Source of the DNA: Lentzea guizhouensis
GTDB taxonomy: Bacteria; Actinomycetota; Actinomycetes; Mycobacteriales; Pseudonocardiaceae
Length of the DNA stretch: 64,000 nucleotides
Assembly (NCBI RefSeq): GCF_001701025.1
Contig: NZ_CP016793.1
Coordinates: 9,858,001 to 9,922,000, forward strand
Direction of reading: 5' to 3'
Each line of letters begins with the position of its first letter. Position 1 is the first letter of the stretch. Below are positions 42,907 through 64,000 of the stretch, one piece after another. The notes below the pieces were generated by a model, which was given only the letters and a program-made list of their open reading frames with translations, ran no database searches and was not told the origin of the DNA. The position numbers and the translations under genes were made by a program.

Positions 42907-43908
42907 CTAGTCCGCCAGGCTGACGTCCGGCCACACCAGCGTGGTCGCGCCCCACGTGAGCCCGCCGCCGAACGCCGTCAGCAACACCTTCTGCCCCGCC
43001 CGCAGCTCACCGACCCGCACGCCGTGCGCGAGCGCCAGCGGGATCGAGGCCGCCGAGGTGTTGCCGACCTCGGTGATGTTGGAGATGAACTTCTCGCGCG
43101 GCACCCCGAGCTCCTCCGACACCGCGTCGAGGATGCGGGTGTTGGCCTGGTGCGCGACCACCCTGTCCACATCGGACGTCACCCACCCGCTGCGCTTGAT
43201 CGCGGCGCGGGAGGCGGCGGCCATGCGGGTGACCGCGTTGGCGAAGACCTCGCGGCCCTCCATCTGGAAGAACTTGTCGCCGTGCGGCACGACGTCGCGT
43301 GACGACCGCTGCCGGGAACCGCCCGCGGGCACCGTGATGAGGTCCGACAGCTCTCCGTCGGAGCCCAGGTCGAACGGGCCCAGCGCGCCAGGCTCGTCCG
43401 GGCTGCCCGCCCGCAGCACGACCGCGCCCGCGCCGTCGCCGAAGATGACCGACGTGGTGCGGTCCTGCGGGTTGAGGATCGTGGAGTAGGCGTCACCGCC
43501 GATCACCACGAGGCTCTCCACGATCCCGGAGCTGATCAGCCCGGCGCCGACGCCGAGGCCGTACACGAAACCCGTGCACACGGCCGCGATGTCGAACGCG
43601 GGCACGTCGACCAGGCCGAGCCGCGACGCGATCTCCGGCGCCGTGGCCGGGCAGGGCCGGTCCGGTGTCGTGGTGGCGAGGACCACCCCGCCCGCGCCCG
43701 GCACGCCGGCCGAGCGCAGGGCCCGCCTGGCCGCCTCGACGGACAGGTCGGACGTCGCCATCCCGGGTTCGACGACGTGCCGGGTGGCGACGCCGATCCG
43801 GGTGCGGATCCACTCGTCCGTCGTGTCGAGCCTGGCGGTCAGCTCGTCGTTGGTGACCACTCGCGGCGGGAGCCATGACCCGAGTCCCGCGACCACCGCT
43901 GCGCGCAT
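42907..43908 (-). CDS. Beta-ketoacyl-ACP synthase III (FabH/KAS III-like)
   Basis: 333 residues. The active-site Cys-111 is in FDIAAVCTGFVYGL, His-253 in AHQANTRIL, Asn-283 in VGNTSAAS: a complete KAS III triad. FabH starts fatty acid or polyketide chains by condensing acyl-CoA with malonyl-ACP; in antibiotic clusters relatives supply unusual starters or esterify. It is the last gene of the minus-strand cluster set, 13 bp after the aldehyde dehydrogenase stop, and separated from ordinary fatty acid genes (no fabD, acpP or fabF alongside), so a specialised role in the cluster is likely but unproven. Confidence 0.93.
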   Translation of the reverse strand: MRAAVVAGLGSWLPPRVVTNDELTARLDTTDEWIRTRIGVATRHVVEPGMATSDLSVEAARRALRSAGVPGAGGVVLATTTPDRPCPATAPEIASRLGLVDVPAFDIAAVCTGFVYGLGVGAGLISSGIVESLVVIGGDAYSTILNPQDRTTSVIFGDGAGAVVLRAGSPDEPGALGPFDLGSDGELSDLITVPAGGSRQRSSRDVVPHGDKFFQMEGREVFANAVTRMAAASRAAIKRSGWVTSDVDRVVAHQANTRILDAVSEELGVPREKFISNITEVGNTSAASIPLALAHGVRVGELRAGQKVLLTAFGGGLTWGATTLVWPDVSLAD

Positions 43909-43921
43909 TCTCCGACCTTCC

Positions 43922-45397
43922 TCACCGGTTGTCCGCCAGCACTTCCGGGAGGAAGCGGCGGGGAAACCCTTGGAACACCACGGGACGCTGGAACCGTTCG
44001 ACGGCCCGCACGCCGACGGAGGTGTGGAACGGCGACGTCGTCGCGGGCCACGGACCGCCGTGGTGCATGGCGGGCGTGGTCGCGATGTCGTTCGGCCAGT
44101 CGTTCCACACGATCCGGCCCGCGCGCCCGGTCAGCTCATCGACCAGTTCCGGCAGGACGTCGTCGTCCTCGCCGTGCACGGTCGCGGTCAGCTGTCCCGG
44201 CATCGTCGCGGCGAGCTCCAGCAGTTCGGCGCTGGAGCGGTAGGTCGCCACGACTGCGACGGGCCCGAAGCACTCGGTGAGCGCGTCGGTCTGCCCCGCC
44301 AGCACGTCGGCCGCGGTGGTGCGCAACAACGTCGGTGCGTGCCCACCGGCGGTGGATCCGCCCTCCACCAGCACGTCCAGGAAAGCAGTGAGCGCTTCCA
44401 CGGCGGTTTCACACCGCTTCGCCACGAGCCGGTTGAACAGGGGTTCCGCCCGCAGCGCACGCACCTCGGCGGCGACCTGGCCGGCGAAACCCTCTGGTAC
44501 GACGAGAAGTCCGGGTTTGGTGCACAGCTGCCCGCTCGACTGCGCCAGCGCCGCGGCGAAGCCCTTGGCGATCTCCGCGCCCCGCACGGCGGCGGCCTGG
44601 CGCGTCACGAACACCGGGTTGACGCTGCCGAAGCCGCCGTAGAACGGGATCGGCTCCGGCCGGGTGGCGGCGAGGTGGTGCAGCTCGCGGCCGACGCGGG
44701 CGGAGCCGATGAACGCCACGGCCTTGATCCGCGGGTCTCCCACGAGCTCGCGGGCCCTGCGGGTGCCGTGCACCAGCGCGAACACGCCCTTGGGCAGCAC
44801 CGCTTCGACGATCTCGGCCGTGCGGTCGGCGAGGTCGGGATAGCTGTGGCTGGCTTTGAAGACGACCGGGCAGCCGGCGGCGAGCGCGGAGGCGGTGTCG
44901 TTGCCCGCCACGGAGAACGCGAACGGGAACGACGTGGAACCGAACACGGCGACCGGGCCGAGCGGGACGAGCACGCGCCGCAGGTCCGGTCGCGGGCCGG
45001 GCGGCCAGTCGGGGTCGGCGTGGTCGACCACGACCCCGTTGGCCGCGCCGGAACGCAGGTACCCGGCGAACGAGCGCAGCTGGAAGGTGGTGCGCCCCAC
45101 CTCGGCGCGCAACCGGCCGGCGGGCAGCCTGGTCTCCCACTCCGCCAGCGCGACGAGCTCGCCGGTCTCGCGGTCGAGTGCGGCGGCGACGGCGTCGAGG
45201 GCGTCGGCACGTTCGTCCTGGCCGGTGGCGCCCACGCGGGCGGCTCCGGCCGCCCGGTCCAGCACCGCGTCCTGCCACGGGTCCTGCGCTCGCGCGGCCG
45301 CTGTGCCCTCCGCGCGGTCGGGCACCGCGTCCCGTACCCGCGCGGTCACTGCGCCTTCCCCTGGCCCGTCCACCCGGTCGTCCACTGGCGCGTTCAC
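43922..45397 (-). CDS. Aldehyde dehydrogenase (NADP), KGSADH-like, with altered general-base site
   Basis: 491 residues. The nucleophile is Cys-292 (SSGQLCTKPG) and the cofactor strands (PVAVFGSTSFPFAF; KAVAFIGSARVG) resemble alpha-ketoglutaric-semialdehyde dehydrogenases. In that group the general-base glutamate lies in a F-x-G-E-L-x-S-x-N-P motif; here residues 252-261 read FYGGFGSVNP, so the glutamate position holds Gly-255. The codons are GGC GGC TTC and no indel would restore it. Either the enzyme is impaired, uses another base, or does a non-standard reaction. The first 60 residues are Ala/Asp/Arg-rich and poorly conserved-looking. Lies between PAS-LuxR and fabH, apparently in the cluster operon. 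Confidence 0.88.
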   Translation of the reverse strand: MNAPVDDRVDGPGEGAVTARVRDAVPDRAEGTAAARAQDPWQDAVLDRAAGAARVGATGQDERADALDAVAAALDRETGELVALAEWETRLPAGRLRAEVGRTTFQLRSFAGYLRSGAANGVVVDHADPDWPPGPRPDLRRVLVPLGPVAVFGSTSFPFAFSVAGNDTASALAAGCPVVFKASHSYPDLADRTAEIVEAVLPKGVFALVHGTRRARELVGDPRIKAVAFIGSARVGRELHHLAATRPEPIPFYGGFGSVNPVFVTRQAAAVRGAEIAKGFAAALAQSSGQLCTKPGLLVVPEGFAGQVAAEVRALRAEPLFNRLVAKRCETAVEALTAFLDVLVEGGSTAGGHAPTLLRTTAADVLAGQTDALTECFGPVAVVATYRSSAELLELAATMPGQLTATVHGEDDDVLPELVDELTGRAGRIVWNDWPNDIATTPAMHHGGPWPATTSPFHTSVGVRAVERFQRPVVFQGFPRRFLPEVLADNR

Positions 45398-45407
45398 GGG
45401 TCGTGCC

Positions 45408-46091
45408 CTACTTGATGTAGTCCGGGGAGACCCGGGGCGGCCAGCTGGCGACGCTGAGCACGCCGAGGCTGTAGGCGCGCGAGACGAGCGCGGCGCGGTT
45501 GGGGGCCTTGAGCTTCTTCAGCATGGTGCCGACGTGGTACTCGACGCCCTGGCGGGACAGGAAGAGCCGCGAGGCCAGCCGGACGGTCGACTCGCCGGTG
45601 GCGATGCCCTCGAGGATGCGGGCGTCGAGCTCGGTGAGGATGCGGTTGCGGTCGACGACGACGGCGTTGGGCTGCTCGCCCTTCTCCGGGTTCACGACGA
45701 CGACGAACTGCACCAGGTCGCCATGCGCGTCGTGCACCGCGATGCCGGTGATGTCGCCGGTGAAGACGGCGTGGCGCGGGCCGATGCCGGCGAGGTGCTC
45801 GACGAAGCGCTGCCGGCGGCCCTCGGTCAGCCGGTCGAACTGTTTGCGCATGGGGCCGTGCACGCCGGGGTGCAGCAGCTCGTAGAAGCTGCGGCCGACG
45901 AGCGACTCGCGGGAGTGCCCGAACTGCGTCACGAAGTCGTCGTTGGCCTCCACGACGCGCAGCCCGAGGTCGAGGCGGGCGAGGCACAGGCCGGACCGCT
46001 CCAGCAGAGACCGGAACACGTCGGCGTCGGGAACGACGGAAGCGCCGTTGAAGTGGTCGTGTGCGAGAGAACCAGCGGCAACAGTGTGCAT
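45408..46091 (-). CDS. PAS-LuxR transcriptional regulator (PimM-like)
   Basis: 227 residues. An N-terminal PAS domain (about 25-135: LARLDLGLRVVEANDDFVTQFG, GRSFYELLHPGVHGPMRKQF) is joined to a LuxR helix-turn-helix (about 155-215: DARILEGIATGESTVRLASRLFLSRQGVEYHVGTMLKKLKAPNRAALV). This two-domain form is the regulator type found in polyene macrolide clusters (PimM, AmphRIV, NysRIV), where it binds CTVGGGAWWTCCCBAG boxes. The site at 41528 fits that box. ATG start at 46091. Presence of this family strongly suggests the polyketide made here is a polyene or similar macrolide. Confidence 0.93.
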   Translation of the reverse strand: MHTVAAGSLAHDHFNGASVVPDADVFRSLLERSGLCLARLDLGLRVVEANDDFVTQFGHSRESLVGRSFYELLHPGVHGPMRKQFDRLTEGRRQRFVEHLAGIGPRHAVFTGDITGIAVHDAHGDLVQFVVVVNPEKGEQPNAVVVDRNRILTELDARILEGIATGESTVRLASRLFLSRQGVEYHVGTMLKKLKAPNRAALVSRAYSLGVLSVASWPPRVSPDYIK

Positions 46092-46489: not shown

Positions 46490-49185
46490 TCACACCGGCG
46501 GCGGACAGGCCCGGTCGAGCGCACCCGCGAGTTCGGTGCGGCGCCGGATGCCGAGCTTGCGGAACGAGTTCGTGAGGTGCTTCTCGACCGCTCTGCTGGT
46601 CACGGCGAGCGCTTCCGCGATCTCGGCGTTGGTGAGACCCTGGACGACGAGACCGGCGACTTTGAACTCGGCACGGGTCAATGCCACGAGAATGGCGGGC
46701 GAATTCCCGTCGAGTTCCCGCGCGGTTCTTCCGGCAAGCTCGTGCGCACCGCTGCGGGTCGCGAGCCGGTGGGCTTCTTCGAGGTGCTGTCGCGCCGACG
46801 TGTGGCCATCGGCTCGTGCGCGCGCACCGAGCTGAAGCAGCGTCTTGGCGCGTTCGTACGGGTTGGCGTGCAGGGTCTGCACGGACTCGTGGAGCAGGTC
46901 GAGCCCCTTGCGGCCGGGCGTGTAGCGGCCGAGCACGCGCAACGCCCGGCCGATGCCGACCGGCGCACCCCACTCGACCGCGCGTTCCCACGCCTGGGCG
47001 GCTGCGTCCCGTGCGGCATCGAGGTCACCGAGATGGGCATGCAGCCGTGCGGTGGACACGCACCACGGCAGCAGCACGGGATTGCGCCAGCCGACGCCGT
47101 CGAAAACACGCCCGCTCTCTTGTAGCTCCGCGAGTGCTCTGGCGTGGTCTCCGGCCAACGACAGCCCCACGGCGTTGATCATCCGGTAGGTGGCGTCGAC
47201 GCCGGGCAGTTCGTCGCGGTCGGGCCGGGAGGCGAGCAGTTTCCCGATCAGCTCCGGTTCTCGCAGGTCCATCGCGACGGCGCAGAGGGCGATCGGCCCG
47301 GTCGTGGTGTCGCCGCGCCAGTCGAGCACGGCGAGGTCGACCGCGTCCTCGGCGGCGCGGCGGGCTTCTCCCGGCCGGCCGAGGTGCATGAGCACGAACG
47401 ACTGCTGCGCGCGGATCAGCGCCCGTTCGACGGTGTTCGTGGCCGCCTTCAGGGCGTTGTCGAGCCACGGCACGGCCACGTGGGCGGCGTCGGCGGCGGC
47501 GAGTGCCTTGATCAGCAACGGCAGCGCGGTGTGGACGTGCCGGGGGTGCGGTGGTTCCTGGGCGAGAACGGCGCCGGCCAGGCGGGCGATCTCGTGGGCG
47601 GGCAGTTTCGCGGTGACCATGGCCGCGTCGATCAGGACGATCTGCAGCTCCCGTTCGCCGGGGGTCGTGCCGTGGACGTGCTTCAGGCGTTCGACGGCCG
47701 ATGCGAGCAATGCGGGGTCGGAGTGCCACACGCACCGTTGGCGCGCCTCAAGCCGAGGGGCGAGCTCTGTGTCGTGGCCCAGGTCGGCGACGACTTGGTC
47801 GATGAGAGCACGCACTGGCCGTGGCGCGCACCCGAGCGCGGTGGGCGCCAACCGGACGAGGGCTGCCGCTCTCTCTCGTACGTCTGTGAACAGCGGCACG
47901 GCGTAGGAGACGTGCCGGACGGACGCGGCGGGGTCGAAGAACCGTTCGGCGGTGGCGAGGTCGACCAGCAGCCGGGCGCGGTGGGCGGAGTCGCAGGTGA
48001 CCTCGCGCAGGGCTCGCCGCAGGTACCTGGCCGCGGTCTCCGGCGCACCGCGGCGCATCGCGGTGGCCGCCGCCTCGCGCAGCGTGCCGACCGCCCAGTC
48101 GTCCTGGCGGTGGTGACGGCGAGCAGCCGGGCGGCGACCTGTTCGGCCGGCCGGCCGCTGTCGTGCAGCATCCGCACGGCCCTCGCCTGCCAGCACTCGC
48201 GTTCGGCGACCGTCATGGACTCCTCGACGGCGGCGGATGGTGGGCTTGCCGGTGCAGAGCCCGGCGCGTCGAGGACCCGCCTGGCGGTGCGGGCCTCGTC
48301 GGGGTCCAGCCCGGCGAGGGGGCCGGCGAGCTCGTCGTCGTCACCGAGGGTGGCCGCGGCCCTGGCGTAGTCCTGGACCTGCCGCGACTGGGTGGCGAGG
48401 CCGCGGACCAGGCGTTCGATCAGCCGGGCCGGGCGCAGCTCGCGGACGTGCGCGACCTGGTCGGCGGTGGGGCTGGTGACGTGCAGCAGCACCGCGCACA
48501 GGAACAGCGGGGTGCCTCCGGTGGCGGCGAGGCAGGCGGTGACGAACGCGGGGTCCGGCGGCTGGCCGGTGCGGCGTTCGACGAGCTCGGCGACGGCGTC
48601 ACGGGACAACGGCTGCGGACGGATCTCGTTGCGGCGCAACGACTCCAGCACAGGCCGCGGTTCGCCGTCCCTGGTCGTGACGACGACGAGGACCGGCCGC
48701 CCGGCCAGCACGCCGGTGAGCTTCGCGAGCCAGCGCAGCGACGGGTCGTCGGCCCACTGGAGGTCGTCGACCACCACCAACGTCGGCTGGTCGGCGCTGA
48801 TCGCGCAGATGAGCGCGGTGAGGCCCTGGACGGCGGCCTCCTGCACGGCGAACGCGGCGCCGGCGGGCTCGTCGTCGCAGAAGACCACCCGCGCGAGCCC
48901 GGCCGCTCCCCCGAACCACCGTTCCCCGGTCTCGTGCGACGCACCGGACAGCACCGGGTCGAGCAGCTGCCGGGCGACCCCGAACGCGAAGTCGCGTTCC
49001 AGCGCCGCGCAGGTGGCGGTGAGGACGCGGAACCCGTGTGCCCGTGCGGCGAGCGCGTCGAGCAACGCGGACTTGCCGCAGCCGAGCGGGCCGCTGATGA
49101 CGAACTGGTCGCCGTGGCCTGCGCGGGCGCGGTCGAGTGCCTCGGTCAGCAGGCGCAGCTCGCTGGCGCGTTCGAGCAGGACCAT
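46490..49185 (-). CDS. LAL-type LuxR regulator 1 (frameshifted near 48.11 kb)
   Basis: With one frameshift corrected the product is about 898 residues, the normal size for the large ATP-binding LuxR (LAL/MalT-like) activators of polyketide clusters. N-terminal AAA part: Walker A SGPLGCGKSALLDAL, Walker B LVVVDDLQWADDPSL. C-terminal helical repeats end in a LuxR HTH (ALTRAEFKVAGLVVQGLTNAEIAEALAVTSRAVEKHLTNSF..LG). The frame changes where AARLLAVT meets QDDWAVGTLREAA, next to 48106-48115. Start ATG 49185 overlaps the stop of LAL 2 (TGATG), so the two are translationally coupled. Confidence 0.82.
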
Positions 49186-51780
49186 CACGACGCCAGCGCG
49201 TGGGGGAGCTCGGCGCGGCTGGAGATGCCGAGCTTGCGGTAGGACCTCGTCAGGTGCACCTCGACGGTCCGCAGCGTGACGAAGAGGTGGTCGGCGATGG
49301 CCCGGTTCGTCTCCCCGGCCGCGGCCAGCTCGACGACCCTGCGCTCGCTCGCCGTGAGCACGGCCAGTCCGTCCCCGCACGTGAGCGACGGCATCCGCCC
49401 TCCGGCACCGACCAGCAGCTCGCGGGCCGCGTCGGCGAGCAACCGGTTGCCGGCGCGCAGCGCCAGTTCGACCGCGGTGCGCAGGTGCCCGCGGGCGGTG
49501 CGGGTCTCCCCGCGGCGAGCCACCGGCGGCCGAGCTGGAGCTCCGCGCGGGCCTGCTGGACGACCGAGGGCACCGCGGCGAACCCCTCGGCGGCGAGGCG
49601 CAGCAGGTCGAGCGCGGCGAGCCCCGGTGTGGCGAAACCCCGTGCCAGCAACGAGTGCGCGACGGCTTCGCGGGACGGCCACAGCTTGGCGAGCCGGTCG
49701 ACCTCCTCCACGGCACCGCTGGCGTCATGACCGGTCAGCGTCAGGACGTGGACGATGTCGGTCCAGGTGGGCAACGTGCCCGGATCGCTGAGTCCGGTCG
49801 CCAGGATCTCGTCCGCGCACGCCGACATGAGCTCCACCGCGTGGTCGACGTCGTCCCGCAGGTACGCGAGCCATCCCGCGGCGCGCAGGTACTCGCGGTA
49901 CACCGGGGTCCGGTGGCGGATCTGCTCGGCGTCGACCTCGTCGAGCAGCTGCCCGGCCTTGGCGAGGTGGCCGGTCTGCACCGACAGCCACGCCAGCAGC
50001 ACCACCGCGCGGGGCAGGCTCCAGCCTCCGTCGCGCACGGCCCGCACGGCGGTCGACGCGTCCTGGGTCGCCCTGCCCAGGTCGCCCAGGGACATGTGCA
50101 CCAGCGCCCGTTGCACGAGCGAGCGGCAGCGGGCGAGCGAGTCGCCGTTGTGCGCGAAGGCTTCCACGGCCCGGTCGAGCACGGACATGGCCTCGGCGGG
50201 GTGCCCGGCGACGCGCAGCACGGTGGCCGCCGACAGCATCGACCAGTCGGTCACCGCGTCGGTGTCGGCCAGTGCCGCCCGCGCGTACCCGACGGCGGTG
50301 TCGGCCGATCCGCCGCCGCGCAGGGTGGCTTCCGCGACCACGCCGAGCAGACATCGTTGTGCCGTCGTGGTTCCCGCTGGTGGCGGCACGGCGGCGCGCA
50401 CCGCCTCGGCCACGGCCGTCGCGTCCTCGAGGTCGAGCGAGAGCCGCACGGCGTCGAGCAGGGTGGCGAGGTCGCCGGACAGCGCCGGGTCGCGGGCGAT
50501 CCGCAGGAACGTCCTGGTCCGCCCGGTCAGCGCGTGCTTGACCGCGAGCGCCGCGCAGGTCGGGTCGGTGGTGCGGTGGAACGCGGCCGCCAGGTGCTCG
50601 CACGCGCGGCGGGTCGTGGCGGGACAGCTGGTCGCGAGTTCACCCGCAGCTCGACGTCGTCGGGGTCGAGCTCGACCAGCCGGCGCAGGTACCTGGCGGC
50701 GTCGCGGGGCGGGCCACCGGCGGCGGCCTCGTGCAGCACCTGCGACATCCACGGCACGTCGACGGCCGGGAGGTGCACGAGCTGGTCGGCGACCACGCGC
50801 ACGTCGTGGCCGGACTCGTCGAGCACGACGGCCGCGCGGTGCCGCAGGTCGGCGACCTCGGCGGGGCCGAGCACGTCCAGCACCCCGGACCGGTACCACT
50901 CTCGGACGTGGTCGGGCAGGCCTTCGCCGAGCAGGTGTTCGTTCTGCAGCAACGACATCCCGTCCTCGGCGACGCGTGCCGACACCCCGGCGAGCGGTGC
51001 GACCAGCTCCGGCCGGTCCACCACGACGAGTGCGGTGGCGATGGCCCGCAGGTGCTCGGGCCGGTCGCGCAACCGGCGGGCGGCCACCAGCTCGACCGCC
51101 TCGCGGCGCAGTGCCCGCGCCGCGCGGAGGTCGGCCAGCACGGTCGTGAGGTGGCGCGGGTTGCCGCCGGAGAGCCGCAGGCACAGCGCGGTGAACACGG
51201 CGTCGGGCGGGAACCGCAGGGTGGCGGCGATCATGTCGGCGACCTGCGGTGCCGTCAGCGGTGGCAGGTCGACCACGTGGGCCTGGGCGAGGTCGACGGT
51301 GAGCGCGCCGCTCTGGGACAGCACCAGGCTGATCGGCTGGTGCGCGAGCCGGCGCAGCACGAAGTCGGTCCAGCCGACCGTGGCGTCGTCGCACGCGTCG
51401 AGGTCGTCGAGCACCAGGCAGACGGGCGAGCGGTGCGCGAGGGCCACGACATCGCGCCACAGCTGGCAGTAGACGCGGTGGACGTCGGTTTCGCCGGTGA
51501 GCTCGGGGACGGTGATCCCGGCGGGGGCGAGCAGTCTGCGGGCGACGGCGAGCGGGGCGCGTTCCCGTTGTCCCGCCGCGGTGAGCACGGTGGTGCCCGC
51601 GCGGGACTCGGCGGCCGCGGCGGTGCGCAGGACGGACGACTTGCCGCAGCCACGGGCTCCGCGCACGACCACGGCCTGCGCGCCCGCACCGCGACGAGCC
51701 GCGGCCGTGTGGTGCGCCACCGTCGTGAGCGCGCTCTCCCGGCCGAACAGCTCTGTGCCTGAGCCCGCCTGGTCGTCCAC
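49185..51780 (-). CDS. LAL-type LuxR regulator 2 (two frameshifts)
   Basis: Pieces in three frames add up to about 865 residues. N-terminal ATPase (from GTG 51780): Walker A VRGARGCGKSSVLRTA, Walker B LVLDDLDACDD. Middle helical repeats from about 50640 to 49515. LuxR HTH at the C terminus: VLTASERRVVELAAAGETNRAIADHLFVTLRTVEVHLTRSYRKLG. Frame changes near 50641 (DVELR joins GELATSC if one G is added to a GGG run) and near 49515 (LGRRWLAA joins RGETRTA). It is the first of two adjacent LAL regulators; paralogous pairs are common in macrolide and polyene clusters. Confidence 0.78.
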
Positions 51781-51936: not shown

Positions 51937-52386
51937 CTAATACGCGGCGACCCGGTTCGGCACGACCCGGTAGAGGCTGGGTTTCTCCGGCAGGAACGCG
52001 AGCCCGAACCTGGTCAGGAACTCGCCGAACGGGCCGTCGACGAACTCGTCGTCCGGCCGGCCGTCCCAGGTGTCGGCGGCGGCGCGCGCGACCTCGCCCG
52101 CGGTGCCGTCGTAGACGACCAGGTCCGGCCGGTCGTCGGCGAAGTAGCCGCGGGCCAGCGAGATCGGCGAGCTGCTGTCGTCCAGGAACCCCACCACGTC
52201 CCACCTGCCCTCGGTGGCGTCGCTCAGCGCGAGCCGGGCGGCGACCTCGGAGGAGGTGGCGTAGGTGACGCGGTAGCCGCGCCGCACCAGCTCCTCGATC
52301 ACCGCGAGCGCCGGCAGCGCCTGGCCGCGGCGGGGGTTGGCGAAGATCGCGACGTGCCGCTGCCGGGAACAGAGCTGCTCTGCCAT
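51937..52386 (-). CDS. Truncated MGT-type glycosyltransferase (N-domain only)
   Basis: 149 residues. HVAIFANPRRGQALPALAVIEELVRRGYRVTYAT is the N-terminal Rossmann domain of macrolide-type (MGT, GT1) glycosyltransferases, and DDRPDLVVYDGTAGEVA matches a later conserved strand. After about 115 residues the frame drifts and ends at TAG 51937. The nucleotide-sugar-binding C-domain (about 200 residues) is missing, and only 156 bp separate it from LAL 2, so it was deleted, not frameshifted. Cannot be an active transferase alone. A partner-type helper protein or a decaying gene. Confidence 0.6.
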   Translation of the reverse strand: MAEQLCSRQRHVAIFANPRRGQALPALAVIEELVRRGYRVTYATSSEVAARLALSDATEGRWDVVGFLDDSSSPISLARGYFADDRPDLVVYDGTAGEVARAAADTWDGRPDDEFVDGPFGEFLTRFGLAFLPEKPSLYRVVPNRVAAY

Positions 52387-52396
52387 CGGTGGCGAC

Positions 52397-54096
52397 TCAC
52401 CTTCCGTTGTCCACGAGCCGGAACCCGCTTCCCGTCTTGGTTCCGAGGTGTCCCGCGGCGACCAGCCGGCGCAGTTCCTCCGCGGGTTCCGGTTCGCCGG
52501 TGGGAGAAGCCGCGCTCAGCGTTTCGAGAATGGCCAGGGACACGTCCAGCCCGATGGTGTCGAGGAGCGTGAAGGGGCCCATCGGGTGGTGGTAGGCGGT
52601 GACGACCGCGGTGTCGATCTCGTCGACGGTGACGTCGGTGCGGGCGAGCATGCGGATCGCGTCGTTGAGGTACGGGAAGAGGACGTGGTTGACGATGAAC
52701 CCGACCCGGTCGCCGCAGTCCACAGGGGTCTTGCGCAGCCACCGCACCAGCGCGTGGGCGGTGGCGTGGACGTCGTCGGCGGTGTGGCCGGTGCGGACGA
52801 CCTCGACGAGCCTCATCACCGGTGCGGGGTTGAAGAAGTGCAGCCCGATGACGTCGGCGGGCCGTCCGGTGGCGTTCGCGCACTCGGTCACGGACAGGCT
52901 GGACGTGGTGGTCGCGATGATCGCGCCGGGTTTGAGCGCGGCGTCGATGCCCTGCAGCACAGCACGTTTGGCGCGCATGTCCTCGGCGACGGCTTCGACG
53001 ACGATGTCGGCGTCGGCGAGCGCGTCGTAGCCGGTGGCGACGGTGAGCCTGGCGAGGACGTCCTGGCGGTCCTGTTCGGACATCCGCCCCTTCCGCACGA
53101 GCCGGGTCAGGGAGGCGTGGATGCGGTCGGCGGCTTCGTCGGCTTTGTGTGTGCTGCGGGCGATGAGCGTTGTCGGAATGCCCGCCGCTATCAGGATTTC
53201 GGCGATGCCGCGGCCCATGGTGCCCGAGCCGACGACGCCGGCTCGGCGGATCTCGCGCGGGGTTCCCCCGCTGATGGCGGTGCGGGCGGGCGGGACGATC
53301 TCGCCGCGGTGGTCGTAGCGGTGGAAGCCGCGACCGACCTTGCGGCCCAGCAGGCCTTCCTCGACCATGCGGTCCAGCAGCGGTGAGGGGACGTAGGAGG
53401 CGGAGCCGGTCTGCTCGTGCAGCCGCAGCAGGGCGGACCGGACGGTGTCGAGGCCGATGAGGTCGAGCAGGTGCAGCGGCCCGAACTTCAGGCCGCAGCC
53501 CAGGCGCAGCGCGGTGTCGAGGTCCTCGACGGTCGCGTAGCCCGCGGCGGCGAGGTTCACCGTGCGGTTCACGCAGGCGTAGAGCAGGGCGGTCGCCGCC
53601 TCCGCCGGCCGGCCGCCGAGGCTCACGACCTCGGTGCCGGCCAGCCGGAGCACCGTGCGGCCAGGTGCCGCGCCTCGGGCGCGGTCATGGTGGTGCCGAC
53701 GAGGCTCGCGTGCCGGCCGTGGGGCGGCGGGATGGCGTAGCGCAGCCCGACGACGCGGTCCGGCGCACCGGAGGCGATGGCGAGCCTGGCCACGGACAGC
53801 GTGGAGGTGGTGGTCGCGAAGACCGTGCCGGGCACGCACGCCTCGACGAGCTGGCGCAGCACGGTCTCCTTGACGTCCTGGTCCTCCGGCACCGCCTCGA
53901 TGACGAGGTCGGCGCGTTTGAGGTCGACCAGTTCCGTCGCGAGGGTGAGCTGGGGCCCGCCGAGCCGTTCGTGGACGCGGCCGAGCACGTCCGGGTCGCT
54001 GTCGACGCCGATGACCTCGGCGCCACCCGCGAGCAGGGCGTCCGCCAGGCCTTCGCCCAGTCCGCCGAGCCCCACCACGCCGATCACGAGTGACAT
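52397..54096 (-). CDS. Tandem (two-domain) 3-hydroxyacyl-CoA dehydrogenase, frameshifted
   Basis: With one frameshift near 53655 corrected, about 565 residues form two complete 3-hydroxyacyl-CoA dehydrogenase units. Unit 1: VIGVVGLGGLGEGLADALL, FATTTSTLSVARLA. Unit 2: AGVVGSGTMGRGIAEILI, IATTTSSLSVTECANATGRPADVIGLHFFNPAPVM (catalytic His in HFFNP), and DRVGFIVNHVLFPYLNDAI. In unit 1 the HFFNP-like site is changed (GLRYAIPPPHGR), so it may be inactive. Such enzymes oxidise 3-hydroxyacyl-CoA to 3-oxoacyl-CoA, and in PKS clusters help make extender or starter units. 21 bp after the PKS stop. Confidence 0.82.
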
Positions 54097-54117: not shown

Positions 54118-54333
54118 CTAGAGACCGAGCTCTTCGTCGAGCAGCGCGAACATCTCGTCGTCGGAGGCCGTCTCGAAGTCCGTCTCCGGCTGGTCGTGGT
54201 GGCGCAGCGACGCCCACCTCGTGCGCAGGACGTCGAGGCGGCCGGCGATCTGCTGGTGCAGTGCGTCGGTGACGCTCGCCGCGGTCAGCGCCTTCTCGAA
54301 CGCGTCGAGGTCGGCCAGCACGGCGGGCAGTCC
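54118..54333 (-). other. C-terminal docking domain of the PKS
   Basis: The last 70 residues after ACP 2 ([20 protein letters not shown], then [17 protein letters not shown]) form helices of the class 1 docking type ending in the usual acidic 'DeE.F.llD.ELG' helix. The chain is therefore handed to another PKS subunit, not released here. Confidence 0.75.
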
Positions 54334-57300
54334 GGCCTCCGGCGCGTCGGCGAGCAGCTCGTCCTTGAGGTGCGCCACCAGGTCGGCCGGGGTCGGGTAG
54401 TCGAACACCAGCGTGGCCGGGAGCCGCAGCCCGGTGGCCGCGCCGAGCCGGTTGCGCAGCTCGACCGCGGTGAGGGAGTCGAAGCCGAGGTCCTGGAACT
54501 GGCGGTCCTCCTCGACGACCTCGCCCTCGGCGTGGCCGAGCACGTCGGCGACCTGGCCGCGCACCAGGTCGAGCAGCGCGTCGGCGCGGCCCTGGTCGGT
54601 GAGCGCGGTGAGGCGATTGACCAGCGAGTCGGCGGTCTCCTGGCCGGCGACCGCCTTCTTCGACCTGGCCCGCACGAGGGCGCGCAGCAGTGGCGCGATC
54701 TCGTTCTGGTTGCGCAGCACGGAGAAGTCGAGCCGGACCGGGACGGTCGCGGCGGCGCCGGTCCGCAGTGCCTCGTCGAGCAGGGTGGTGCCGAGTGCCT
54801 CGGTGATGGCCGGCATGCCGGAGCGGGCCATGCGTTCCGCGTCCTGGGCGCTGAGCATGCCGGTGTCCCAAGCGCCCCAGGCGAGCGAGGTCGCCTCGTG
54901 GCCGCGCGCCTTGCGGTGTGCGGCGAGTGCGTCGAGGAACGCGTTGGCCGCCGCGTAGTTCGCCTGCCCGGCGTTGCCGAACGTGCCGGCGACGCTGCCG
55001 AACAGGACGAGGTTCGCCTCCGGTGCCAGCTCGTGCAGGTGCCAGGCGGCGTCGACCTTGGGCTTGAGCACCTCCGCCAGGCGCTCGGCGGTCAACGCCT
55101 CGACGGTGGCGTCGTCGAGCACACCGGCCGCGTGGACGATCGTCTTCGGCCGGTGGGTGCCGACGAGCTCGGCGAGCGCGGCGCGGTCGCTGACGTCGCA
55201 GGCCGCCACGGTCACGGTCGCACCTCCCGCCTCGAGGTCGGGGACGTCGGCCTGGCCGGTGCGGCTCACCAGCAGCAGGTCGCGCACACCGTGGTGCTCG
55301 ACGAGGTGCCTGGCGACGATCCGGCCGAGCCCGCCCGTGCCGCCGGTGATGAGCACCGGCTCCTGCCAGTCGAGCACACCGTCCTTTCGTTCCGCCCTCA
55401 TCAGGCGACCACCGAGGACCTCGCCGTCGCGGAGGACGACCTGCGGCTCGCCGGCGTTGAGGGCGTGGGCGACGACCGCTCGGCTGCTGGGCAGGTCGTC
55501 GAGGTCGAGCAGCCCGAACGCGCCGGGGTGCTCGGACTGCGCGGTCCTGACGAGGCCCCAGACGGCGGCGCTGGCCGGGTCGGGCCGGTCGCCGGTGGCG
55601 TTCCTCGTGACGAACCAGAGCCGTGCGTTCTCGTCGCCGGTGACCCACTCCTGGATGGTGGCGAGTGCTCCGGCGGTCGCGGTGTGGGTGGCGGTGACGA
55701 CGTCCGCGCCGGTCCTGACCTGGACGAGGACCGTGCCGGCGGCGTCGTCGACGACGAGGTGGTCCCGCAGCCCGAAGTGGTCCTCACCGGTGATGGCGAC
55801 CGCCTTGACCGGCTCGTTCGCGGTGATCTTCGTCCAGTTCAGCGTGAAGAGCGCGTCCCTGGTGTCGTCGAGCTGCTCGGTGCTGATCGGGCGGACGACC
55901 AGCGACCGGACCTCGGCGACCGGGTTGCCCCGCGGGTCGGCGATGACGATGTGCAGCGCCCCGCTGTCGTCCCTGGTCGTCCTGACCCTGGCGGCCGTCG
56001 CCCCGGTGGCGTGGATCTTCACGCCCTCCCAGCTGAACGGCAACCCGGCCGCGCCGTCACCCTCCTGCAGGAGCGCGGTGTGCAGGGCGGCGTCGAGCAA
56101 CGCCGGGTGGATGCCGAACTCCCCGGCCTCCACCGGCAGCGCGACCTCCGCGTGCACCGCGCCGTCGTGCCGCCACGCGGCGCGCAGCCCCTGGAACGCC
56201 TCCCCGTAGGCGAACCCGATCTCGGCGAACCGGTCGTAGACCCCGCCGAGCTCGACCGGCTCCCCCTGCGGCCAGCCCTCGAGCCGCTCACCGGTGGCGT
56301 CCGTCGTGCTGAGGGTGCCGCTGGCGTTCTCGGTCCAGGGCAGGTCGGTGTCCTCCGGCCGGCTGTAGATCGTGACCGCGCGCCGGCCGTTGTCCTCGGC
56401 ACCGACCGCGACCTGCACCTGAACACCGCCCTGCTCGGGCAACATCACCGGCGCCGCGATCGTGAGCTCGTCGAGCGTGTCGAGCCCGAGCTCCTCCGCC
56501 GCCCTGAGCGCCACCTCCACCAGCGCCGCACCGGGCACCAACGTCCGGCCCATGATCACGTGGTCGGCGAGCCACCGGTGCGTCCGGAGCGAGATCCGGC
56601 TGGTGAACAGGTACCCGTCCTGCCCGGCCAGCTGCACCGCCGCCCCGAGCAACGGGTGCCCGACACTGCCGAGCCCCGCGGCCTTGACGTCACCACGGCT
56701 CTCCACGACCTTCGGCCAGTACGACTGCCGCCGGAACGCGTAGGTGGGCAGCGCGATCTTCTTGGCGTTGCCGAGCAACGGCGTCCAGTCGACGTCAACA
56801 CCGTGAACCTGCAGCTGCCCCAATGCCGTGAGCACGGTTCGTTGCTCGTCGGCGTTCCTCTTCGTCGTGGGAATCGCTCCGTCGACAAGTGGCGTGAGCG
56901 CCGCGTCCGGCCCGATCTCCACGAACGTGCAGTCGCCGAGCGCCGTGACGTTGTCGTGGAACCGCACCGCATCCCGCACGTGGTTCACCCAGTAGTCGAC
57001 GCTCGTGACGTCCCCGGCCGCACTCATCCCGATCCGCGGCTCGGTGAACGTGATCCCGCCGATCGCCTCCCGGAAGTCTTCGAGCACCGGCTCCATCAAC
57101 GGCGAGTGGAACGCGTGACTCACCTTGAGCTGCCGGTACTTCCACTGCTTCGCGATCTTGAGGACCTCGTCCTCCTCACCGGCCAGCACCACGGTCCGCG
57201 GCCCGTTGATCGCCGCGATCGACACGTTCCCGGTCAGGTACGGCGTCACTTCCTCTTCGGACGCGATCACCGACACCATGGCCCCACCGCTCGGCAACGC

Positions 57301-60300
57301 CTGCATCAACGCGGCCCGCGCCGTGATCAGCAAGCACGCGTCCTCCAGGCTCAGCACCCCGGCCACGTGCGCCGCCGCAACCTCACCGATCGAGTGCCCC
57401 GCCACCTTGTCCGGCTTCACCCCGAAGCTCTCGACCAACCGGTACAACGCTGTCTCCACCGCGAACAACGCAGGCTGCGCGAACCCGGTCTGGTCGAGCT
57501 TCTCCGCGTCCTCCCCCCACATCACCTCGCGCAACGCCGGGTCCAGGTGCTGCAGCGCCTCGTCGAGGGCCGTCGCAAACACCGGATAGGCCTCGTACAG
57601 CTCCTTGCCCATCCCGATCCGCTGCGCCCCCTGCCCGCTGAACAGGAACGCCACAGGCTTGCGCGCCACCTGCCCACGCGCCACCACCTCACCGCCCAAC
57701 ACGACGGCCCGGTGGTCGAACATCGTCCTGCTCGTCAGCAACGAGTACGCCACGTCCGCCGCGTCGCCGGGCCACGCCTTGATGCGCTCGACCTGGCCTT
57801 CCAGCGCGGCTTCGGACCGCGCCGACACCACCCACGGCACCAGCGCACCACGCCCGCCTCCGTCACGCCCGGCCTCACCGCTTCCGGCCCCGCCTTGGCC
57901 AGCGCCGCCTTGGCCAGCCTCAACACCTCCGGCTCCGCCAAGCCCGGCCTCACCGCTCCCGGCCTTACCGCGTCCGGCCCCGCCATGCTCGGCCCCATCA
58001 CGCCCGGTCCCGCCGCGGCCAGCCCTGTCACGCCTGGCTCCGTCACTCCCGGCCCCGTCACGGCCAGCCTCACCACGCTCGACCCCATCAGACCCGGCGT
58101 CGCCCCTCGGAATCGATACCGACTCACCGGCCCCCTGGGGGGATCCACCCCCCATCCCAATCATCTCAGGCACCACCGACAATTCCGGCCCACCCGGAGC
58201 CTCCAAGATCACGTGCGCGTTCGTCCCCGAGATCCCGAACGACGACACCGCCGCCCGCCGCGCCCGCCCCACCGCCGGCCACGCGGTGTTCTCCTGCACC
58301 AGCGACACCGCACCCTCGCTCCAGTCGACGTGCGTGGACGGCGTCTCCGCGTGCAACGTCCGCGGCAGAACCCCGTGCCGCATCGCCTGCACCATCTTGA
58401 TGATGCCCGCGACACCCGCCGCCGCCTGCGTGTGACCGATGTTCGACTTGATACCGCCCAACAGCAGCGGCACGGATCGCTCCTGCCCGTACACCGCCAT
58501 CAACGCCTGCGCCTCGATGGGATCGCCCAAAGAAGTACCTGTGCCATGAGCCTCAACAGCGTCCACATCAGCAGCAGCCAACCCAGCAGACGCCAACGCC
58601 TGACGAATCACCCTCTGCTGCGACGGCCCGTTAGGCGCCGTCAACCCGTTGGAAGCACCGTCCTGGTTGATCGCAGACCCACGCACGACCGCAAGCACGT
58701 CATGCCCCAGACGCCGTGCATCAGACAGACGCTCCAACACGAGCAGACCCACACCCTCAGACCAACCAACACCATCAGCCGAATCCGAGAAGGCCTTGCA
58801 ACGCCCGTCCTCCGACAACCCACGCTGCCGCGAGAACCCGACGAACGACCCCGGCGTCGACATGACCGTCACACCACCGGCCAGCGCCAACGAACACTCA
58901 CCCGCGCGTAGAGCCTGCATAGCCCAGTGCAACGCCACCAACGACGACGAGCACGCCGTGTCGACCGTGACCGCGGGACCTTCCAGGCCCAGCGTGTAGG
59001 AGACACGTCCGGACACGATGGACGGAGAGGTGCCGGAGCCCTGGAAGCCCTCGAACTCACCGCCGCCGAGCCGCGCGCCGTAGTCGTTGTACATCACACC
59101 GGCGAACACACCCGTTGAGCTGCCACGCAACGATGCCGGCGCAATGCCCGCACGTTCCAACGCCTCCCACGCCGTCTCCAGCATGAGTCGCTGCTGTGAG
59201 TCCGTGGCGACCGCCTCGCGCGGCGACATCCCGAAGAACTCCGGGTCGAACTGGTCCGCGTCGTGCAAGAAGCCACCAGCCCGCACGTACGACGTGCCGG
59301 GGTGGTCGGGGTCCGGGTGGAACAACGTGTCCAGGTCCCAGCCGCGGTTCGTCGGGAACGGCGTGATCGCGTCCCGTCCGTCGAACACCAGCTCCCACAG
59401 CTCTTCCGGCGACGTGACCCCACCGGGATACCGGCAGGCCATGCCCACGATGACGATCGGGTCGTCCGAAGTGGACACCAGCGCGGGCAGGTCCGACACG
59501 TCCGACACCGCTCCGAGCAGCTCGTCCCGCACGTACCCGGCCAGCTGCGCGGTCGACGGGTAGTCGAACACCACCGTGGCCGGCAGTTTCAACCCGGTCA
59601 CCGCCGTGAGCCGGTTGCGCAGCTCGACCGCCGTCAGCGAGTCGAACCCGAGCTCCTGGAACGCCCGCGTCGGATCGACCGCCAGCACGGTGTCGTACCC
59701 GAGCACGGCCGCGACCTCACCGCGCACCAGTTCCACCAACGCATCCAGCTGCCCTGCAGCGTCCAACCCGGACAGTCGCAGCACCAGTCCGGACGCCGTC
59801 TCCGACCCCGCGACCTTGCGCCGCGCCTTCACCCGGATCAGCCCGCGCAGCAACGGCTTCACATCGCCGCTCTTCAGCACGCCCAGGTCCAGCCGCACCG
59901 GCACGACCGCCGCGTCCTCGCCACCGACCGCCGCGTCGAACAACCGCAACCCGAGCTCGGCCGAGATCGCCGGCATCCCCGAGCGCTGCATCCGTTCCGC
60001 GTCCTCGGCCGACAACATCCCGGTGTCCCAAGCGCCCCACGCCAGCGACACACCCGGCAGGCCGCTCGCCCGCCGACGAGCCGCCAGCGCGTCGAGGAAC
60101 GCATTGCCCGCCGCGTAGTTGCCCTGCCCGGCGTTGCCGAACACCCCTGCCGCCGACGAGAACAACACGAACTGCGAAACGTCAGCAGCAAGCTCATGCA
60201 GGTTCAACGCCGCATCGACCTTCGCCCGCAGCACCGCGTCAACGCGCGCCGGCGTGAGCGACTCGATCACCCCGTCGTCCAGCACACCCGCCGCGTGCAC

Positions 60301-63300
60301 AACACCTCGAACCTCGTGCCGCTGCAACACCTCTGCCAACGCCGCCCGGTCCGCGACGTCACATGCCACGACGGAGACTCGTGCCCCCAACGCTTCCAGC
60401 TCGCTCACGTCACCCTGACCGCTGCGGCTGACCAGCACCAGCGAGGTCACGCCGTGCGTCTCGACCAGGTGCCGCGCCACGATCCGGCCCAGCCCACCGG
60501 TACCGCCGGTGATCAGCACCGGACTCTCCCACACCGCACCGGAAGACCCCTGTGCCCGCCCGAGCCGCGCCGCACGCACCTTGCCACCGCGGATCGCCAG
60601 CTGCGGCTCGTCGAGCTCCAGCGCCGCGGGTACCAGCTCCCCACCGTCCACGTCGACCAACCCGAACCGGTCGGGGTGCTCGGTCTGCGCGGTCCGCACC
60701 AGTCCCCACACCGCCGCACCGGCCAGGTCGTCACCCTCGACCGCACCGCGCGTGACGAACACCAGCCGCCCGTCGCGGTCCTCGCGAACCCACTCCTGCA
60801 CCAGTTCCAGCGCCCGGTGGGTGGCAGCACGAACCGACTCGGCGTCCTGCTCCCCGCCCACGGCCGCCAGCACGACGTCCGCGTCCGCCGCGGGAACCTG
60901 CCCGAGCCCGAACTCGTCCGGCCCGAGCACACCGACCGTCCTGGTCGTCTCCGCCGGCACCGCGACCGGCGTCCACCGCACCGCGAACAACGCGTCCAGC
61001 TCCGGCTTCTCCGCCGCGACCGCCCGCATGACCAGCGACTCGACCGAGGCCACCGGGTTGCCCGCCGGGTCGGCCACCGCGATCCGCAGTCCGTTGCCGT
61101 CGCGCGTCATCTTGACCCGCAACGCCGTCGCGCCGGTCGCGTGCAACGACACGTTCTCCCATGCGAACGGCAGCCCGGCCTGCCCGCTCTCGTCCAGCAA
61201 CGAGGCGTGCAGCGCAGCGTCCAGCAACGCCGGGTGCAACCCGAACGGCTTGACGTTCACGTCGTCCGGCAACGCGACCTCGGCATAGGTGGTGTCACCG
61301 TCACGCCACGCCGCCCGCAGCCCCCGGAACAGGCCGCTGTAAGCGAATCCAGCTTCCGCGAACCTCTCGTAACAACCCTCGACGTCGACCGCATCGGCGT
61401 TCGGCGGCCACACCGGCACGTCGAACTCGACCCGCTGCTCCCCCTTGGCCAGCACACCGCTGACGACCTGCGTCCACGGCGCGTCCGCCACCTCGTCCGG
61501 CCGCGCGTGGATGGTGAACGTCCGCCGCTCCTCGCCCGCCGACACCTTCATCTGCAACGCCAGCCCGCCGTGCTCCGGCAGCACGACCGGCGCCGACAAC
61601 GTCAGCTCCTCCAGCCGGTCGCACCCGACCTCGTCACCCGCCCGCATCGCGAGCTCCACGAGCGCCGCACCGGGCACCATCACGCGCCCGGAGACCACGT
61701 GGTTGCCCAGCCACGGATGCGTGCGCAGTGCCAGCCTGCTCGTGAACAGGAACCCTTCCCCGTCAGCGAGTTCCGCCGCGGCGATCAGCAACGGATGCCC
61801 GACCGCGACCATGCCGATCCCGGACGCGTCGTCACCACCGATCCGCACCGCCGGCCAGTACCGCTGGTGGTCGAACGCGTAGGTGGGCAGGTCGATCTTC
61901 CTGCCACCCGCGCAGAACCCGCTCCAGTCAACCCGCACACCGTCGACGTGCAACCGCGCCAACGCCGTCAGCGCCGCCGTCGCCTCGTCCTTGTCCTTGC
62001 GCAGCACCGGAACCGCGTCCTCGACGAGCGCGGACAGCACCCCGTCCGGCCCGATCTCCAGGAACGTCGTGGCCCCGTTCTGCCGCAGCCGCCGCACGTT
62101 CTCCGCGAACCGCACCGCATCCCGCACGTGGTTCACCCAGTACTCGACCGTCGTGACGTCACCGCTCGCAACAACCGGAATCTCCGGCTGGCGCAACGTG
62201 ATCTCCGCGAGTGACTCGCGGAAGTCGTCCAGCATCGGCTCCATCAACGGCGAGTGGAACGCGTGCGACACCTTCAGCCGCTTGCTCTTCCACCTCTGCG
62301 CGATGGCGAACACTTCTTCTTCGTCGCCCGCGATCACCACCGACTGCGGCCCGTTGACCGCCGCCACCGACACGTTCCCGCTCAGATGCGGCAACACTTC
62401 TTCCTCGGACGCAACGACCGACACCATCGCGCCGCCCTCCGGCAACGCCTGCATGAGCGCCGACCGCGCCGTCACCAGCAGGCACGCGTCCTCCAGGCTC
62501 AGCACACCGGCCACGTGCGCCGCCGCGATCTCTCCGATCGAGTGCCCCGCCACCTGCTCGGCTCGCACTCCCCACGACTCGACCAACCGGTGCAGCGCCA
62601 CCTCGACAGCGAAGATCGCCGGCTGCGCAACCCCCGTCTGGTTCAGCGCCTCCGCGTCCTCACCCCACATGACCTCGCGCACCGCGGGATCCAGGTACTG
62701 CAACACACCGTCGAGCGCCTCCGCGAACACGGGGAACCGCGCGTACAGCTCGCGTCCCATCCCGAGTCGTTGCGCCCCTGTCCGGAGAACAACACGCCAG
62801 CGGTGCGCCGCCCGCCGCGCGCGATCTCGCCGTCCAGCACACGGCCCGGTGCTCGAACGCATCCGCTGGTCCAGCAGCGAGTACCCGATGTCAGCGCGCT
62901 GCCGTCCGCCGCCCGACTCGACCTGCGTCGCCGCCGCAACCGCGCCGACACAGCCACGGAATCGATTCCGATTCGCAGGCCCCCTGGGGGGATCCACCCC
63001 CCATCCAATCATCTCAGGCAGGTCTGACAATCCGGCGCGCCGGCGCCTCCAAGATCACGTGCGCGTTCGTCCCGGACAGCCCGAACGACGACACACCAGC
63101 CCGCCGCGGCCGCTCCACCGCAGGCCACGGCGTCGCCTCCGTCACCAGCGAAACCGCGCCCTCCGACCAGTCGACGTGCGACGACGGCGACGTGACGTGC
63201 AGCGTCGGCGGCACCACACCGTGCCGCATCGCCTGGACCATCTTGATCACACCCGCGACACCCGCCGCGGCCTGCGCGTGCCCGATGTTCGACTTGACCC

Positions 63301-64000
63301 CACCGAGCAGCAACGGCACCGACCGGTCCTGCCCGTACGTCGCCAGCAACGCCTGCGCCTCGATCGGGTCACCCAGCGTCGTGCCCGTGCCGTGCGCCTC
63401 CACCGCATCGACATCGGCCACCGACAGACCGGCCGAAGCCAGCGCCTGCCGGATCACCCGCTGCTGCGACGGCCCGTTCGGCGCCGTCAAGCCGTTCGAC
63501 GCACCGTCCTGGTTGATCGCCGACCCCGCGCAGCACCGCCAGCACGGTGTGCCCGTTGCGCACCGCGTCCGACTGCCGCTCCAGCACCAGCAACCCGACG
63601 CCCTCCGACCAGCCGACACCGTCCGCCGAGTCCGAGAACGCCTTGCACCGCCCGTCCTCCGCCAGCCCGCGCTGACGCGAGAACCCGACGAACGCACCCG
63701 GCGTCGACATCACCGTCACACCGCCGGCCAGCGCCAGCGAACACTCACCGGCCCGAAGAGCCTGCGCCGCCAGGTGCATCGCCACCAACGACGACGAGCA
63801 CGCCGTGTCGATCGACACCGACGGCCCCTCGAACCCGAACGTGTATGAAACGCGCCCGGACACCACCGACGGTGACGTACCGGCACCCTGGTGCCCCTCG
63901 GAGTCGGCCTCGAGGATCTGCGCGTAGTCCGAGTACATGACACCGGCGAACACACCGGTCCGCGACCCGCGCAGCGACGTCGGGTCGATGCCCGCCCGCT
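54118..64000 (-). CDS. Modular type I polyketide synthase, two modules visible, runs off window end
   Basis: From the window end the order is KS, AT, DH, KR, ACP, KS, AT, DH, KR, ACP, then a docking tail. Active sites in the second module: KS Cys-1360, His-1495, His-1533 (numbered on the 2970-residue open frame that begins at 63030); AT GHSIGE Ser-1880 with HAFH, so malonyl-specific; DH His-2157 ([14 protein letters not shown]) and Asp-2313; KR GGTGGLG with LDD (B-type), Ser-2679, Tyr-2692, Asn-2696; ACP Ser-2852. The first module has the same sites intact (AT Ser-164, DH His-444, KR LDD 917-919, ACP Ser-1131). Both modules thus install a double bond. No thioesterase. Frameshifts interrupt 62.77-63.53 kb. 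Confidence 0.95.
57844..58110 (-). repeat. Gly/Ala/Arg-rich repeat insertion in KS-AT linker
   Basis: About 89 residues of degenerate pentapeptide repeats (roughly G-x-x-G-A / G-x-G-G-A, e.g. [20 protein letters not shown]) in the linker after the module-B KS. The DNA has a 15-bp periodicity. No comparable run is seen in module A. The linker there is normally short and structured. Confidence 0.85.
58129..58171. repeat. Intermodular direct repeat, copy in module B
   Basis: A 43-44 bp sequence with two C6/G6 runs around GGATCC, repeated at 62978-63020. This copy is in frame ([14 protein letters not shown] on the minus strand). Confidence 0.8.
59515..64000 (-). other. PKS module A: KS (partial)-AT-DH-KR-ACP
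   Basis: KS about 63070 to beyond 64000, with the DTACSSSLV cysteine and HGTGTT motif present but the frame split by an extra G at 63524-63527. AT about 62793-61852 (HAFH, malonyl); its first 60 residues are scrambled by indels. DH about 61803-61015 with [11 protein letters not shown] and [12 protein letters not shown] core about 60522-59881 with LDD motif. ACP about 59754-59515 (LGFDSLTA). All reductive sites read as active. Confidence 0.9.
62978..63020. repeat. Intermodular direct repeat, copy in module A with one base missing
   Basis: Identical to the copy at 58129-58171 except for one lost C (CATCCAATC against CATCCCAATC), which shifts the frame. It shows by internal comparison that a single-base deletion occurred here. 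Confidence 0.8.

Follow-up and report, generated by a model that had tools for sequence, protein, structure and literature searches.

The right end of the window, a stretch of 64,000 nucleotides (9858001-9922000 of the single 9,997,872-base contig of Lentzea guizhouensis), is very probably (about 0.86) the left end of a flavatericin-type gene cluster that makes a glycosylated heptaene macrolide with all-trans double bonds and 3-hydroxybenzoate as its starter. Gene content, domain order and motifs were read from the sequence, and substrates, product and regulation are predicted from them. PMC8944477 includes a prediction for L. waywayandensis and L. xinjiangensis, whose PKS genes it calls incompletely assembled: all-trans heptaenes built by 24 modules and primed with 3-hydroxybenzoate. 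As the class has already been predicted in print for these two sister Lentzea species, the L. guizhouensis cluster is a further case of a known, chemically little characterized family.

Modules 12 and 13 of a polyene PKS lie in the window and are followed by a C-terminal docking-like tail (54118-64000, minus strand), as identified from the translation and from domain profiles seeded from the window protein itself. They form the 3' part of PKS gene C, which extends beyond the window to approximately window-equivalent position 84064; the window ORF matches a 9863-aa PKS of L. waywayandensis at 86% over 1541 aa. In module 12 (all domains of both modules being on the minus strand) the KS lies in two pieces in different frames (63047-63532 and 63522-64310, of which 63047-64000 is inside the window), followed by a malonyl-type AT (HAFH, 61906-62781), a DH with intact catalytic motifs (61108-61797), a B-type KR (LDD, 59926-60876) and an ACP (59518-59742). 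Module 13 has a KS (58201-59466), a malonyl-type AT (HAFH, 56776-57648), a DH with intact catalytic motifs (55981-56658), a B-type KR (54766-55734) and an ACP (54355-54579). KS, ACP and the KR of module 13 were placed by profiles, and the other domains by translation, profiles and a motif pattern; this pattern missed the LDD of the module 13 KR, which was read in the translation. Both ATs have GHSIGE together with HAFH, both DHs have HxxxGxxxxP and both KRs have the Y...N pair in the translation. HAFH, YASH and VASH in ATs, and LDD and W (A-type) in KRs, are taken here in their established meanings. LDD and the geometry of the double bonds formed by DH-KR modules are described in PMC8944477.

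The domain profiles and motifs bear out an earlier note, made from the letters of this DNA, that two consecutive malonyl-type modules have an active DH, a B-type KR and no ER. PF13602, the one ER family searched, had 34 matches in the genome and none between 9912118 and 9997872. The KS of module 12 sits upstream of the ORF at 54118-63030, in other frames, with breaks between 62781 and 63047 and near 63522-63532. The apparent start of this ORF at 63030 was rejected as an artefact of one such break, and out-of-frame sequence precedes the AT of module 12.

Reading on to the contig end confirmed the proposal that the cluster continues to the right of position 64000. The PKS occupies the minus strand from 9977727 to 9912118 (65 kb) and begins with a loading AMP-binding domain (an AMP-ligase; PF00501, 302.8 bits at the N-terminus), a degenerate KR and an ACP. 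These are followed by module 1 (KR), modules 2-4 (DH-KR), modules 5-7 (KR only), modules 8-13 (DH-KR) and the tail. Modules 8-13, six in a row in one protein, are all AT(HAFH)-DH-KR(LDD) by translation, profiles and motif pattern. The final PKS piece (9993370-9997872) is the counterpart of module 23 of the relatives, and 13 modules and one partial module are assembled here. Further type I PKS regions lie on the contig at 6.49-6.52 Mb, 9.389-9.424 Mb and 21 kb, and several KS domains of the 9.39-9.42 Mb region are likewise in pieces.

A gene beside the PKS encodes a chorismatase (TIGR04444, 440 bits against a cut-off of 325). Its best PDB match is 5ag3 (Hyg5), and Cys327 of 5ag3, where FkbO has Ala, is conserved; by its sequence the enzyme is of the Hyg5 type. 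Also beside the PKS is a putative class II DAHP synthase, identified from its sequence (89% to its relative). Pfam and NCBIfam also placed an MhpA-like FAD hydroxylase, a third LAL, a GT, a DegT aminotransferase, a P450, a ferredoxin and a second P450 beside the PKS. The best PDB matches of the DegT protein are perosamine synthetases (3bn1, E 5.6e-89). By family, a P450, the perosamine-synthetase-like DegT and a UDPGT-family GT are candidates for AmphN-, AmphDII- and AmphDI-like proteins.

Intact clusters were read in L. waywayandensis, L. nigeriaca, L. flava and L. xinjiangensis. All four have 24 KS domains in six ORFs (1+6+6+6+4+1 modules, genes A to F) plus an AMP-ligase loading module, and key motifs are alike among them. 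DH motifs are intact in modules 2-4, 9-14 and 22 of the relatives. In each of the five clusters examined, the DH of module 8 has kept His and Asp but has Ala in place of the motif Pro, and a hexaene is therefore possible. The DH of module 20 has no HxxxG stretch, that of module 23 is degenerate, and so are the KRs of module 18 and of the loading module. ATs 4 and 16 have YASH, 5 and 7 have VASH and the rest have HAFH. Module 14, the first of the next protein, is a seventh DH-KR(LDD) module in all four relatives. In L. waywayandensis, where Pfam was applied, module 22 was found to contain an ER and the last protein to carry a TE, the other modules having no ER-sized gap before the KR. This cluster also encodes an ABC transporter, a free-standing thioesterase and a GDP-mannose dehydratase (PF16363, 405.9 bits), the last with orthologues in the other three relatives. 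The PKS ORF pieces of L. guizhouensis match L. waywayandensis at 71-91%.

The earlier proposal of a polyene product agrees with the uninterrupted run of six DH-KR(LDD) modules that one protein contains here and with the seventh in four relatives. Neighbouring modules with an inactive DH or an ER had been named as evidence that would speak against it. In the relatives, modules 20 and 23 (damaged DH) and 22 (ER) are of this kind; since they fall outside the polyene stretch, the objection does not apply.

In the predicted pathway, the chorismatase would form 3-hydroxybenzoate, the loading-module AMP-ligase would activate it and 24 modules would build the chain. Modules 8-14, of which the window holds 12 and 13, would introduce seven conjugated trans double bonds; no cis bonds are predicted because the KRs of these modules are all LDD. 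The hexamodular protein acting after the heptaene modules would form the methyl-branch and hemiketal region, the TE would close the lactone, a P450 would oxidize the methyl branch and the GT would add mycosamine or perosamine. The predicted product has an aryl-CH(OH)-CH2-triene side chain, a heptaene macrolactone with a hemiketal, a carboxyl branch and one aminosugar. Its ring is presumably 38-membered, a size taken from alignment to candicidin numbering.

Whether the polyene is a macrolide or linear had been left as alternatives, and the macrolide is favoured because the relatives have a terminal TE and an AmphI-like hexamodular protein, and because of the aminosugar genes. The hexamodular protein comprises modules 14-19 in all four relatives, with YASH in the AT of module 16 and a degenerate KR in module 18, and the description of AmphI in PMC8944477 fits it. 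That the product is a meijiemycin-like linear polyol, a glycosylated polyene instead of a macrolactone, could be argued from the tail of the window protein, which is docking-like and without a TE, and from the TE matches in the genome, none of whose 19 members lies within the cluster. It is improbable, however, since the last PKS protein of L. waywayandensis has a TE in its module (Pfam) and the other three intact clusters encode a homologue of this protein that matches its TE end. The regulators, GT, aminotransferase, P450 and ferredoxin form a set resembling that of the nystatin cluster, but the nystatin PKS has 18 modules as against 24 in the relatives. Although PMC9120177 gives an antiSMASH label of 'nystatin A1' for L. 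guizhouensis, the AMP-ligase loading module and the adjoining chorismatase make it extremely unlikely that the polyene is of the nystatin type and has an aliphatic starter.

Several smaller genes, all on the minus strand, lie to the left of the heptaene PKS. A double-domain 3-hydroxyacyl-CoA dehydrogenase (52397-54096, family search) has a frame break near 53655 that divides it in two, and is a single 565-aa gene in L. waywayandensis. It is probably not essential, as no such gene is called in the L. xinjiangensis stretch. The 149-aa protein next to the PKS (51937-52386) had been described as a GT fragment. It is not a decayed remnant, being conserved in Lentzea relatives at 143-149 aa, and nor was GT identity upheld, no Pfam family being matched at E 0.001. 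This protein has 16 relatives, 10 of them (itself included) at ≥ 79% over 95-100% of the query, four of these 10 being named Lentzea; three relatives are at 54-61%, one of them from a Streptomyces.

The regulators encoded here are LAL 2 (49188-51780; AAA_16 at the N-terminus, two frame breaks), LAL 1 (46490-49188; GerE at the C-terminus, a frame break near 48268), both from family search and alignment to a relative, and a PAS-LuxR protein (45408-46091; family search on a 203-aa version). The ORF at 49250-51460 in the LAL region is in the wrong frame and matched no family. An aldehyde dehydrogenase family protein (43922-45397) and a FabH-like ketosynthase III (42907-43908), both placed by Pfam/NCBIfam, are of uncertain cluster membership. 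The presence of a PAS-LuxR regulator, two LALs, a FabH and an aldehyde dehydrogenase beside the PKS, as first noticed, was upheld in each case by Pfam/NCBIfam, with both LALs frame-broken. The PAS-LuxR and LAL proteins are likely regulators of the cluster. PAS-LuxR is found at ≥ 85% identity in 11 of 24 Lentzea genomes, L. guizhouensis included, and FabH at ≥ 88% in eight of 24. The two lie side by side in Lentzea genome G246, where the best chorismatase is at ≤ 43%; they may therefore belong to the flank. In the L. xinjiangensis stretch, LAL 1, LAL 2, the aldehyde dehydrogenase and the 3-hydroxyacyl-CoA dehydrogenase are all without a called gene. An extender-unit pathway made up of FabH and the two dehydrogenases was considered and is not supported, because that stretch shows no gene for either dehydrogenase yet has the same AT motifs.

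The L. guizhouensis copy is incomplete. According to PMC9120177, L. guizhouensis DHS C013, presumably the strain analysed here, is alone among 21 Lentzea genomes in being complete in one contig. The contig ends inside module 23, its end best matching module 23 of L. waywayandensis (to 854967) and its start matching from 934999. These ends are approximately 80 kb apart in L. waywayandensis, indicating that the single-contig genome is not closed and that about 80 kb is missing. Joining the contig end to its start was tried, and the KS does not carry on there. Gene D (modules 14-19) and gene F (module 24, TE) were not found in the L. guizhouensis stretch, where gene E is present only from residue 5155 on, and nor were the relatives' genes for a third P450, ADH, ABC transporter, GDP-mannose dehydratase and thioesterase. 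Over the whole contig, itself incomplete, the best matches to the GDP-mannose dehydratase and the gene F TE were at 30% and 51%. A 707-aa protein of the missing stretch, from outside the cluster and by sequence a putative ABC ATPase, is at 91-93% in L. flava and L. xinjiangensis, its best matches here being at 49-61%.

The frame breaks and the missing module-24/TE gene may instead be real, the L. guizhouensis copy being broken and making no macrolide. This is rather unlikely. The site of gene F lies away from the ~80 kb gap: the stop codon of gene E and the start of the P450 gene are 39 bp apart (9993331-9993369), and 14 bp of these are an exact remnant of the 3' end of F. The TE end of gene F was found in seven of eight Lentzea genomes with a close chorismatase (the query's own and six at 73-81%), L. 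guizhouensis having just the 51% match, in another PKS region. Compared with L. waywayandensis, genes A, B and C have a coverage of 0.99-1.00 and one, five and four frame changes by the HSP list (the automatic count for C being three). Together with LAL 2 and the 3-hydroxyacyl-CoA dehydrogenase they have 12 (automatic count) or 13 (HSP list), and LAL 1 has one more.

The third-position comparison, made with a 55% identity cut-off at which genes B and C were under-covered (0.88 and 0.87), the frame counts coming mostly from the other alignment, points both ways. The share of third-position change is below that of L. flava for the aminotransferase (1.94 versus 2.95) and the first P450 (1.47 versus 2.34). 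In contrast, the ratios of the PKS genes against L. waywayandensis (2.10, 1.69 and 1.68) are near those of intact L. flava (1.92, 1.84 and 1.82), as are those of the chorismatase (1.62 versus 1.51) and the second P450 (1.37 versus 1.57). Against decay, too, are the evident incompleteness of the contig and a frame change outside the cluster (one in 26 kb with 31 matched genes, 32 having been examined and one unmatched). The rate within the cluster is 1.0 per 10 kb, or ~1.7 by the HSP list, the events being too few to decide. The defects may come from assembly error or from real decay.

The chorismatase was found at ≥ 86% in eight of 24 Lentzea genomes, and matches of any kind in 68 of 390 genomes of the family. 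The eight named loci comprise seven from Lentzea (86-91%) and one from Streptomyces (71%). Streptomyces pacificus has the run from PKS-A to the ferredoxin at 62-84% in the same gene order, aminotransferase included; section 4.3 of PMC8944477 does not name this genus. Genome G147 has the end with PKS-A, chorismatase, DAHP synthase and FAD hydroxylase. At loci L061 and L062 (chorismatases at 51%) the order was not seen within the 4 kb examined. Genomes G345 and G346, of a genus other than Lentzea (possibly Saccharopolyspora), have flavatericin-like clusters, without an aminotransferase in the 80 and 200 kb stretches read.

Cuevaene-type 3-hydroxybenzoate polyketides involve a Hyg5-type chorismatase and an FAD aromatic hydroxylase, as would the product predicted here, but they are trienes, not macrolides. 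Candicidin and partricin share an aromatic starter, heptaene and aminosugar with the predicted Lentzea product, and candicidin, as described in PMC8944477, has a tetramodular protein and then one module with a TE, like the Lentzea relatives. In contrast, Lentzea has a chorismatase with 3-hydroxybenzoate as the predicted starter instead of p-aminobenzoate, 24 modules instead of 21, modules 2-4 (DH-KR) that predict a side-chain triene, and polyene KRs 8-14 that predict a heptaene without cis bonds. The flavatericin-type clusters treated in PMC8944477 (Saccharopolyspora flava, S. dendrathemae and the Lentzea pair) have in common a Hyg5 chorismatase, CoA-ligase loading, an all-trans heptaene, an AmphN-like P450 and a GT. 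The L. guizhouensis copy differs from them in being incomplete. The account in PMC8944477 gives neither a GDP-mannose dehydratase nor a mycosamine synthase for the two Saccharopolyspora, whereas the Lentzea clusters have both.

In the literature searched there was no report of the isolation of a 3-hydroxyphenyl heptaene that bears both an aminosugar and a side-chain triene. It is very improbable, though conceivable, that such a compound is made in Lentzea and a few other actinomycetes while in L. guizhouensis module 24 and its TE are lost and another enzyme releases a shortened chain. To the account in PMC8944477 the present analysis adds full readings of the six-ORF cluster from four species, the further hosts and the defects of the L. 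guizhouensis copy. Aromatic heptaenes are described in PMC8944477 as potent antifungals, and flavatericin as produced with undetectable antifungal activity. The intact Lentzea clusters and the Streptomyces contig are sources with which to ask if antifungal activity is gained when a flavatericin-type core carries an aminosugar.
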